Positions 18,721 through 23,405 of a DNA stretch of 64,000 nt are shown one piece after another (the stretch's first letter is position 1; every line of letters begins with the position of its first letter). Made by a program: the position numbers and the translations under genes. The stretch comes from an uncultured Eudoraea sp. (GTDB lineage Bacteria; Bacteroidota; Bacteroidia; Flavobacteriales; Flavobacteriaceae). The stretch spans positions 1 through 64,000 of the forward strand of contig NZ_CAMYOM010000008.1 of assembly GCF_947260015.1 (NCBI RefSeq). Reading direction: 5' to 3'. Under the pieces are notes generated by a model. It saw only the letters and a list, made by a program, of their open reading frames with translations, did not search any database and had not been told where the DNA came from.

Positions 18721-20682
18721 TTACCCCACTTTAGAATTCAGTTCTTGTCTATACTTCTTTAATGCCAATAGTGAGAAATAGCGCTTGTAGTTTCTGTAAG
18801 AAACCATAGTTGTTTTATAAAATAATCCGCTCATTGGCTGCACCGGCCAGTCACCATCTTCAAGCTGTTGGTCAATAAGCCAGTCTATAGCTTTAATTAA
18901 GCGGGGATCTTCAGCATAACCTCCGTTTAATAATGCGAGTATGCACCAAGCTGTTTGATCAACTACACTGGCATCTGCCTGAATATATTCCCTCGCAAGG
19001 GCAGATTCCTGCGCTTCTCCCCAACCGCCATCTTCTTTTTGTTTGGACCATAGGTAGGTACATGCACTTTGTATTGCCTTATGGTCCTTACTCATTCCAT
19101 ACATGGTCAGTCCTTCTACAACAAAACAAATTCCATAGGTGAAACACAGGCCCCATAAGGCTTCCCAGCTTCCATCTTTATATTGGGAATTCAAAAGGTA
19201 TTTAACGGCACGTTCCATCGCTTTTTCCATTTCATTAGTAAACAAATGGGGTCTGCTTTGTTTTATTTGTACAAAACACTGAATAATACTACCCGTGCAT
19301 TCTACATAAGAATGATCAACCATAATATCAACAAATACATTTGCCGCATTAAACCACTCCAGCTTGGGGTTGCCAATGGCTTTGTCCACACTGGTCCATC
19401 CTCCGTCATCGCCTTGTAGTAGCATTATAAAACCTATGGCTTTTTTTATTCTTGCATCAGATAATAATTCGTCGCCTAAGCCTTCGGTTTCCAAAAGTGC
19501 TTTAATTGCTTCTGCAGTACAATCAGATACCACCCAGCCATTGTCCAGATAGCTAAAAGTCCAGCCACCTGCCCTGGGAAGACGGTGGTATTTAAAAGGG
19601 TTTTCCAGTTCCTTCATTACCTGGTTATCCAACAAGAATTTACGGGTCTTAAGGGCCAAAGGTTTTAACAATGGATCAGTACATTCTTTACCCATAGCCT
19701 GTAAATAGAATCCATTGTCCCAGGTATAAGTGTTAGTAAAGCCCTGCATCAATATTTCATCATCATTTTCCCATAAATATAGGGGTAGTTTTTCCCAGGA
19801 TTTTTTCAGTTTCTCCTGTTCCCCTCTAAAATGGTATATCAGGGTATTATAAACCGCATTTACGGGCGCTTGCCTTATAAAACTTGAATTTTCATCTTCA
19901 TATTCTATGTGTTCATATACTAGTGCCAGTGCTTTCTTTTTGATAAACTTGGGGATAATGGGATCAATTCTCTTGATCCACCACATAGAGATTTTAAATA
20001 TTCTGGTTTCAGGAAATATATTATCTGTGTCTGCAAAGGTCCCTCTATGTTTGGCAAAATTAATTTGCTCATAGGGTTGGAGGTATAATTCCTTCCTTAA
20101 TTGGAGTATTAGTTCATCTGGTTCTATGGATAGACGTTCACGATAGAAGTAACACATCGGTAAATAAATAATCCTTACATAACCTGAAATTTTACGGGGA
20201 TGAAACGGAAACCAGCTGGGTAACATATACAACTCAGGGGGCACAGGAGCAACCCCTTTATAAGAATACAAATTGAGAAATGACAGTATAAATTTGCACC
20301 AACTTGTAGAGTACAAGGGTCCTCCTTTCTCATGTATCCAATTTAATGCTTTTTTTAATTCGGATTCTGAGGCAGAATGACCCAAAAAGCGCAAAGCCAC
20401 ATAATTAATTACACTGGTAAAAATCGTACCCACTTTTGATTCCTGATGAATACCAAAACTGCCATCTGCCAATTGATGTCTTAGTATATACCTACTCATC
20501 TTGGTTTTTGTTACCATAGTCATAGGCTGCCCGCATATTCTCATGGCAAAAATGTATAATGGTAAAAGAAAAAAAGGACCGTCATACGGCACAGGCCAGG
20601 TTCCTTCTTCGGTTTGATTTGCAGCCATCCAACCGTAAACTTTTTGGATAGCCTGCTCAACTTTTTGCTTGGGATTGACCAT
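18721..20682 (-). CDS. osc: oxidosqualene cyclase (terpene cyclase/mutase family)
   Basis: VSDCTAE catalytic motif (19510..19524) in place of the squalene-hopene cyclase DxDD; N-terminal W...YDGPFFLLP; LPSWFPFHPRKISGYVRIIYLPMCYFYRER; DIMVDHSYVECTGSIIQCF; multiple QW repeats. Confidence 0.93.
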   Translation of the reverse strand: MVNPKQKVEQAIQKVYGWMAANQTEEGTWPVPYDGPFFLLPLYIFAMRICGQPMTMVTKTKMSRYILRHQLADGSFGIHQESKVGTIFTSVINYVALRFLGHSASESELKKALNWIHEKGGPLYSTSWCKFILSFLNLYSYKGVAPVPPELYMLPSWFPFHPRKISGYVRIIYLPMCYFYRERLSIEPDELILQLRKELYLQPYEQINFAKHRGTFADTDNIFPETRIFKISMWWIKRIDPIIPKFIKKKALALVYEHIEYEDENSSFIRQAPVNAVYNTLIYHFRGEQEKLKKSWEKLPLYLWENDDEILMQGFTNTYTWDNGFYLQAMGKECTDPLLKPLALKTRKFLLDNQVMKELENPFKYHRLPRAGGWTFSYLDNGWVVSDCTAEAIKALLETEGLGDELLSDARIKKAIGFIMLLQGDDGGWTSVDKAIGNPKLEWFNAANVFVDIMVDHSYVECTGSIIQCFVQIKQSRPHLFTNEMEKAMERAVKYLLNSQYKDGSWEALWGLCFTYGICFVVEGLTMYGMSKDHKAIQSACTYLWSKQKEDGGWGEAQESALAREYIQADASVVDQTAWCILALLNGGYAEDPRLIKAIDWLIDQQLEDGDWPVQPMSGLFYKTTMVSYRNYKRYFSLLALKKYRQELNSKVG

Positions 20683-20988
20683 TATCGGATAACAAATTTC
20701 AATTTATGTCATTTAAATCTTAGGCCTCTGTACAAGGATAATTAATTGTAAGTCGAAGGTTTCAAATTACCATGTAAATATAATTCAATTTAGTTTTGAA
20801 TAATTGCTTTTATGTATACTTATCCTACTTTGCAGAGAACAAAAACAAATGAAATTTTTAGGTTTTGCCCCAAAAGCGATATCTTTGTATGGTTTAATAT
20901 CAATGATTCTATCTTTTTTCCTTTACTCAAGTTATTTGAAAGGAAAACAAAAAGGGAAACTGAAGTTTAGGATATTTATAAAAGACAA
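20683..20988. promoter_or_regulatory. 306-bp divergent intergenic region between OSC and squalene monooxygenase
   Basis: only non-coding space between the divergent genes; must hold both promoters unless transcripts start elsewhere. Confidence 0.55.
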
Positions 20989-22380
20989 ATGTCAAACACC
21001 GGAGTAAATAAAGAAGTTGATGTCCTAATTGTTGGTGCTGGTATTGCCGGTGCAACTTTGGCTGCCAATTTGGCCAAAACGGGAAAAAACATTGTGGTTG
21101 TTGAAAGAGACTTAAGTGAAAGAGATGTCATCATAGGTGAATTGTTACAACCTGGAGGAGTTCAGAAGCTTGGTGAGATGGGCTTTACTTCTTTTATAGA
21201 CCAGATTGATGCCCAGCCTGTTTATGGTTATGACATTATTTTTGAAGGGCAGGATTATGTTATTCCTTATCCAAATAAAAACGGGGAACCTTCTGGATAT
21301 GGTTTTAGGAATGGGGCGTTTTTACAGAATATACGAAAACATGTATTGGCCCTTGATAATGTCCGGGTCATAGAAGGCGCAGTAACGGATTTAATTGATG
21401 AAAAGGACACAATAGTCGGAGCAAGTTTCAAACGTAAGGATGCCATTGAAGAAGAGCAGGTTTATGCAAAACTTACTGTTCTTACAGATGGACCTTTATC
21501 AACTTTTCGGGAAAAATTATCTAAGCCTGTTAATAAATTGAATGGCTATTTCTTAGGGTTACTTTTAAAAAATTGCGAATTACCCTATGCAAATCATGGG
21601 CATCTTGTTATGGGTGATCACCCCCCAATGGTTATATATCCTGTGACTTCTACATCATGGAGGGTATTAATAGATTTTAAAGGAGAAAAACCTCCGAGGA
21701 TGGGCAGGGATTTTAAGAAATTCCTTTTGGAAGAGTTTGAAAACGCAATACCCCAATCTGCTCGTAAAGCCTTTAAAGCAACGGTAGAAGAGGGTAAGTT
21801 CAAGACTTTTCCTAACCACAGACTTCCGGCTAACCCCATCAAAAAAGAGGGCGCTGTTATTTTAGGTGATGCATTAAATATGAGGCATCCTTTAACAGGC
21901 GGGGGAATGACAGCTGCTTTTAATGATGTACTAAGGTTGAGTAATAATCTTGCAAGTATTACGGATTTTAGTAACAAGAAACAAATAGGTAAAGCCATCC
22001 AAAAGTTCTATGAAACACGGCACTTAGGAACACAGACTACAAATATATTGGCAGACGGCCTTTATGGGGTTGTTTATAATCCAGATTTAAGAAAAGCATT
22101 TTTCGAATACGTTAGCAGGGGGGATAAATATGCTGAAGAAACCTGTTCCATCCTTGCCGGACTTAACAAGGATAAAAAACTGTTACTGAATCATTTTATT
22201 GGAATGGCGCGTTATGGTACACAAATGCGAATAACGAATTCTGAAAAATCAAAGGAAACAGTAACCCAATCTCTTACTATGGTAAAGGATGCTGTAGGTA
22301 TTATAACCCCATTACTTCTTTCAGAAAAACCGGATACCGGAAATAAATTGATGCTGGAAGCCTTAAATCGAATCATATAA
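20989..22380 (+). CDS. sqmo: squalene monooxygenase (squalene epoxidase), FAD-dependent
   Basis: GAGIAGATLAANLAKTG...VVVERD; VIIGELLQPGG; GDALNMRHPLTGGGMTAAFNDV: hallmark SQMO motifs. Confidence 0.93.
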   Translation: MSNTGVNKEVDVLIVGAGIAGATLAANLAKTGKNIVVVERDLSERDVIIGELLQPGGVQKLGEMGFTSFIDQIDAQPVYGYDIIFEGQDYVIPYPNKNGEPSGYGFRNGAFLQNIRKHVLALDNVRVIEGAVTDLIDEKDTIVGASFKRKDAIEEEQVYAKLTVLTDGPLSTFREKLSKPVNKLNGYFLGLLLKNCELPYANHGHLVMGDHPPMVIYPVTSTSWRVLIDFKGEKPPRMGRDFKKFLLEEFENAIPQSARKAFKATVEEGKFKTFPNHRLPANPIKKEGAVILGDALNMRHPLTGGGMTAAFNDVLRLSNNLASITDFSNKKQIGKAIQKFYETRHLGTQTTNILADGLYGVVYNPDLRKAFFEYVSRGDKYAEETCSILAGLNKDKKLLLNHFIGMARYGTQMRITNSEKSKETVTQSLTMVKDAVGIITPLLLSEKPDTGNKLMLEALNRII

Positions 22381-22487: not shown

Positions 22488-23405
22488 GTGAAACTTAGTT
22501 TAAGATTTAAAATGAGTAGAGTATTTAACTTTATAATCATTGTAATTAGAACCTTTGTTAAATGGGGAAAATACGAGCCACTTAGTAAATACCCGTTTGG
22601 ACATTTTTACTCCCCTATTGTATCCGGAGGTGAACTTATTGAACTTGAGGACCAGATATGGGAAGATGTAGCACAAGATTCTATTTTAGGAATAAATTTG
22701 AACCTTGAGAATCAATTTTTATTGCTAAAAGAATTTTCTAAATATTATCCTGAAATGCCTTTTAAGGATGAAAAATCGGATAAACATAGATATTGTTTTA
22801 ACAACGGAGCCTATGCATATACAGATGCAATAGTCCTTTATTCTTTTATCAGACATTTTAAACCTAAAAAAATTATAGAGATTGGATCCGGACATTCTTC
22901 AGCAGTAATGCTGGATACAAGAGAGACTTTCGTAAATGACATAAACCTTACATTTATTGAGCCCTACCCACAAAGGCTTTATCGTCTAATTAAAGATACT
23001 GACAGGGATAATTGTACAGTTTTGGATACAAAAGTTCAAAAGGTTGAATTAGAAAAATTTCGTGATTTAAAAAGTAATGACATTCTTTTTATTGATAGCA
23101 GCCATGTCTCAAAAACGGGAAGCGATGTTAATTATGAGATTTTTAAAATTTTACCCAGTCTAAACCCAGGTGTTATTATTCACTTTCACGATGTATTCTA
23201 TCCTTTTGAATATCCTAAAAGCTGGGTTTCTGAAGGACGCAATTGGAACGAAGACTATTTATTACGGGCCTTTTTAAGTTATAATAATAACTTTGAAATA
23301 TTACTCTTTTCAGATTACATTCATCAACATCATAAGACAGCTTTTAAGGAAATGCCGCTTGCCTATAAGAATACCGGAGGTAATCTTTGGATTAGAAAGA
23401 TGTAA
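22488..23405 (+). CDS. class I SAM-dependent methyltransferase (Methyltransf_24-like)
   Basis: KKIIEIGSGHSSAVMLDTRE, DILFIDSSHVSK, PGVIIHFHDVFYPFEYP. Confidence 0.75.
   Translation: MKLSLRFKMSRVFNFIIIVIRTFVKWGKYEPLSKYPFGHFYSPIVSGGELIELEDQIWEDVAQDSILGINLNLENQFLLLKEFSKYYPEMPFKDEKSDKHRYCFNNGAYAYTDAIVLYSFIRHFKPKKIIEIGSGHSSAVMLDTRETFVNDINLTFIEPYPQRLYRLIKDTDRDNCTVLDTKVQKVELEKFRDLKSNDILFIDSSHVSKTGSDVNYEIFKILPSLNPGVIIHFHDVFYPFEYPKSWVSEGRNWNEDYLLRAFLSYNNNFEILLFSDYIHQHHKTAFKEMPLAYKNTGGNLWIRKM

Follow-up and report, generated by a model that had tools for sequence, protein, structure and literature searches.

A complete oxidosqualene cyclase (OSC) gene lies in the window (the whole stretch of 64,000 nucleotides analyzed, from an uncultured Eudoraea sp.), and its product is predicted, with a probability of roughly 0.9, to be an arborane-type enzyme of the Eudoraea kind, orthologous to the cyclase of Eudoraea adriatica and making an isoarborinol-like pentacyclic triterpenol. 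An arborane-class product appears most likely because the protein combines orthology to the E. adriatica OSC with a near-identical cavity. The active-site changes discussed below are real; the same enzyme was described in a sister species in 2017, so the gene constitutes a further example of a known discovery.

The 653-residue open reading frame is complete, and Pfam profiles located both halves of the cyclase fold (PF13249 and PF13243). The protein exceeded the cut-off of TIGR01787 and did not reach that of TIGR03463. Judged by sequence as well as fold, the nearest solved structures were human lanosterol synthase (1W6K/1W6J; phmmer E value of 5.6e-118 against 1W6K) and the plant enzyme TwOSC1 (8J5Z). 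An AlphaFold2 model built on a shallow alignment of 8 sequences reached a pLDDT of 80 and a pTM of 0.82, with low confidence at residues 435 to 455 and 617 to 628. The preliminary description had proposed comparing such a model with human lanosterol synthase, and the two matched at the level of the fold, 1W6J/1W6K being the top PDB matches (TM of 0.88, 31 to 32% identity, 651 columns). The full two-domain fold and a DCTAE motif at residues 387 to 391, in place of DXDD, identify the protein as an OSC; where the Eudoraea protein reads VSDCTAE, the squalene-hopene cyclase rows of the alignment have DD. Asp387, Cys388, and Cys462 of the retained acid machinery correspond to human D455, C456, and C533, and Trp321, Phe376, Trp510, and Phe621 align with human W387, F444, W581, and F696.

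Table 1. Coordinates of the cyclase gene, its active-site codons, and the divergent epoxidase gene within the window
Feature	Position	Strand	Basis
OSC, 653 aa, predicted Eudoraea arborane type	18721..20682	-	PF13249 + PF13243; TIGR01787 above cut-off; best PDB match human OSC (sequence, fold)
Tyr622 codon (human Asn697 position)	18817..18819	-	Codons
Val432 codon GTG (human Tyr503 position)	19387..19389	-	phmmer, L-INS-i alignment, codon read
Asp387-Cys388 of DCTAE acid motif (human D455, C456)	19519..19524	-	Alignment, codons
Val385 codon (human Val453, lanosterol/cycloartenol switch position)	19528..19530	-	Alignment, codons
Tyr168 codon TAT (human His232 position)	20179..20181	-	phmmer, L-INS-i alignment, codon read
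Gly167 + Ser166 codons (human Cys231 + Trp230 positions)	20182..20187	-	Alignment, codons
Intergenic region of divergent OSC/epoxidase pair, blocks conserved between Eudoraea loci	20683..20988		Locus comparison
Squalene epoxidase (monooxygenase), 463 aa, divergent neighbor of OSC	20989..22380	+	PF08491 242 bits; pair conserved across Eudoraea

Lanosterol and cycloartenol synthases are recognized by a dyad of His232 and Tyr503 (human numbering), and in this OSC the two positions are occupied by Tyr168 and Val432. In the phmmer alignment, HPRKISGYVRIIYLPMCY of the OSC pairs without gaps with HPSTLWCHCRQVYLPMSY of 1W6K, which sets Tyr168 against H232, and DGGWTSVD pairs without gaps with human DGGFATYE, which sets Val432 against Y503. 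An L-INS-i alignment of 22 sequences gave an identical register at both sites. Together with the codons themselves, these alignments bear out the preliminary description, which had placed a Tyr at the conserved lanosterol synthase His and a Val at the conserved Tyr. The dyad is believed to perform the deprotonation in lanosterol formation (PMC9236903), and in the yeast enzyme either H234S or H234T, at the equivalent of H232, is alone enough to switch the product (PMC4191879). Further changes nearby or in the cavity are W230S, C231G, C233V, I335Q, T381F, and N697Y. At human position 453, the OSC has the Val expected of a lanosterol synthase (Val385), and on the strength of this residue Eudoraea OSCs were called lanosterol synthases in 2016 (PMC4919349). 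Because the E. adriatica enzyme carries Val453 as well, Val at this position is insufficient for calling a lanosterol synthase; the rule fails for the Eudoraea OSC and, used alone, mislabels such enzymes.

Protein and genome-wide searches assigned the window to the genus Eudoraea (Flavobacteriaceae), with OSC identities of 92% to an uncultured Eudoraea, 88% to E. adriatica DSM 19308, and 72% to the deepest member found. Every readable Eudoraea OSC, including the 72%-identical one, has both dyad substitutions (8 sequences at position 232 and 7 at 503), and residues 230 to 233, 453, and 503 are uniform among them. His232 and Tyr503 are retained in all nine sterol-type OSCs in the comparison (one each from human, a Methylococcales, and Planktothrix, plus six from other Bacteroidota), among which the product was checked for the human enzyme. 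This consistent difference between the Eudoraea and the sterol-type sequences argues that the substitutions did not arise by chance. Over 31 positions that we take to be the OSC cavity, based on the human structure, the OSC matched each of five Eudoraea OSCs at 30 or 31; the match to E. adriatica was 30/31, the exception being human position 702, with Val here versus Ile. The residues at 230, 232, 503, and 697 (S, Y, V, and Y), presumably the published diagnostic positions of arborane-type OSCs, are the same as in E. adriatica and constant in the genus. Phylogenetically, the Eudoraea OSCs form one clade (support of 100/100) on a long branch apart from the plant OSC, which, along with shared gene order and the 88% identity, establishes orthology to the E. 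adriatica enzyme. A sample of 100 other Flavobacteriaceae genomes yielded no OSC of this kind; one of them gave a weak partial match (24% identity). One Eudoraea metagenome-assembled genome (FCS_Bacteroidota_06) contains two OSC copies, L003 and L006, the former with DCSAE where others have DCTAE. Reading L003 as a second, frameshifted copy was rejected, given that the break is an assembly gap; as the two loci have identical flanks, they are probably two strains binned together rather than paralogs.

A squalene epoxidase gene diverges from the cyclase gene, and this arrangement was present in 7/7 Eudoraea loci compared, with the two genes co-occurring in the same 8 of 10 genomes of the genus. 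In E. adriatica, the pair corresponds to G504DRAFT_2315 (epoxidase) and G504DRAFT_2316 (OSC) (PMC4919349). Conserved blocks between the two genes, TGTAAATATAATT and ATACATTTGTA among them, are presumably promoter elements. A search of the genome found no second cyclase, and squalene synthase family genes are located elsewhere in it. There is no obvious triterpenoid-modifying cluster around the pair. The single P450 of the genome is not evidently a CYP51, and the six matches to PF04116 are to a broad model that is unspecific for sterol C4 demethylation. Directly downstream of the epoxidase lies a methyltransferase-like gene (PF13578; positions 22488 to 23405, + strand), which is kept beside the epoxidase in several Eudoraea loci (L002, L003, L006, and L007) and was not found in L004; a function in lipid modification is possible. 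One Eudoraea-genus genome (G107, 100% complete) has squalene synthase family genes and no OSC or squalene epoxidase, which suggests that the pair was absent or lost as a unit.

Arboranes arise via the chair-boat-chair manifold followed by ring expansion, and, to our knowledge, cyclases of the Eudoraea type are the bacterial route to them. Banta et al., in 2017, are said to have named the compounds eudoraenol and adriaticol and reportedly obtained arborinols from a bacterial lanosterol synthase by means of four substitutions. A passage in a later source, citing Banta et al. 2017 (doi 10.1073/pnas.1617231114), reports that Eudoraea synthesizes arborane triterpenols (PMC9360977), the published bacterial source being the E. 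adriatica OSC. The adjacent epoxidase would supply 2,3-oxidosqualene, the epoxide of which would be protonated by Asp387, backed by Cys388 and Cys462, with the substrate folded chair-boat-chair as in sterol synthases. The dyad that ends lanosterol formation is missing and its cavity neighbors are remodeled (Ser, Gly, Val, and Tyr at positions 230, 231, 233, and 697), so a protosteryl-type cation could undergo expansion of ring D and closure of ring E before deprotonation; an analogous route from the protosteryl cation has been proposed for protostahopenol (PMC11951148). The end product would be a pentacyclic isoarborinol-like triterpenol, probably serving as a membrane lipid. A non-sterol, pentacyclic product is thus well supported, and the expectation in the preliminary description that the enzyme makes neither lanosterol nor cycloartenol, and more likely a pentacycle, gains support from the passage on Eudoraea arboranes noted above and from the cavity match to E. 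adriatica.

Other products were weighed against this reading. Val at position 453 correlates with lanosterol production in the bacteria tested (PMC4919349), and the fold and many cavity residues are common to the OSC and human lanosterol synthase, so the enzyme could conceivably still make lanosterol (or parkeol) by way of an atypical active site in which Tyr168 or another residue serves as the base. We consider this very improbable, given that the deprotonating dyad is lost in full, as are W230 and N697, and that the genus of the close ortholog is reported, in the passage cited above, to make arboranes. The preliminary description had also likened the Tyr motif to the WCYCR of plant beta-amyrin synthases, and the OSC and the plant enzyme 8J5Z do have the same residues at 232 (Tyr) and 381 (Phe). 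The likeness is superficial, as the motif here is SGYVR, the residues at 98, 453, 503, 521, and 523 differ from those of the plant enzyme (Tyr, Val, and Val at the first three), several of them being lanosterol synthase residues, and the OSC stands apart from the plant OSC in the tree. Moreover, beta-amyrin, an oleanane, is formed through the chair-chair-chair manifold, so the plant analogy does not carry over, and the chance that the OSC belongs to the oleanane/dammarane manifold is minute.

A different concern is that the manifold is as predicted and the end point is another pentacycle, either a different isomer of arborane or a compound resembling protostahopenol. Plants have protosteryl-derived pentacycles besides isoarborinol (PMC11951148), and replacing a single residue or a few can alter the product profile of a cyclase, which weighs against the arborane reading for a protein that differs from the E. 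adriatica OSC at 12% of its positions. With all but one of the cavity positions the same as in E. adriatica, we regard such an outcome as highly unlikely, and an arborane remains the predicted product.

Recovery of the same active site in more species shows that most of the genus holds the trait stably, and it makes natural variants at 72 to 93% identity available for structure-function work. Arborane biomarkers, often of ambiguous origin, are known from sediments that predate flowering plants (PMC10646143). Considering the isolated, long-branch position of the Eudoraea cyclases and a cavity that is constant down to 72% identity, we tentatively raise the possibility, on balance doubtful, that arborane synthesis arose in them from a sterol-type ancestor, separately from its origin in plants, and that the deepest member (L019/G102) and the OSC described here differ from E. 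adriatica in arborane isomer.

Other OSCs encountered in the comparison had different architectures and contexts. In other Bacteroidota, single open reading frames of ∼1156 to 1202 aa carry an OSC after several hundred additional N-terminal residues (L028:22-3528 on the + strand, L026, L027, L056, L057, and L078). Six of these putative fusions, from two families, are full length, and one more is truncated by the end of its contig. The N-terminal part of L028, the one for which Pfam confirmation was obtained, is a FAD squalene-epoxidase-like domain (PF08491 and PF01494), and its cyclase has His232, Tyr503, and Val453. A squalene epoxidase-OSC fusion would unite consecutive steps of the pathway in a single polypeptide; a narrow literature search found no report of one, and a natural fusion is probably a more novel lead than the Eudoraea OSC itself. 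We also observed a plasmid-borne OSC that keeps His232 and Tyr503 (L054; Planktothrix agardhii plasmid p2), with squalene/phytoene synthase, FAD monooxygenase, and several P450 genes as neighbors.

Among known systems, the closest is the OSC of E. adriatica DSM 19308, which shares with the present enzyme the genus, the divergent epoxidase pair, the flanking genes, and the Tyr/Val, Ser/Gly/Val, and Tyr residues at 232/503, 230/231/233, and 697, respectively; it differs in species and in its Ile at position 702, and the product here is a predicted one. Human lanosterol synthase is similar in fold, in the DCTAE motif, and in Cys533, Trp387, Phe444, Trp581, Phe696, and Val453, but it has the dyad that is replaced here and differs at 10 more of the 31 cavity positions, including W230S, T381F, and N697Y. 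TwOSC1, a stand-in for plant triterpene synthases, agrees at positions 232 (Tyr) and 381 (Phe), but its residues at 503, 453, and 98 are Trp, Leu, and Asn, and it belongs to a separate lineage. The isoarborinol synthases of wheat (TaIAS) and rice, which have been suggested to have arisen independently even of each other, resemble the Eudoraea enzyme in predicted product class (PMC9169793).
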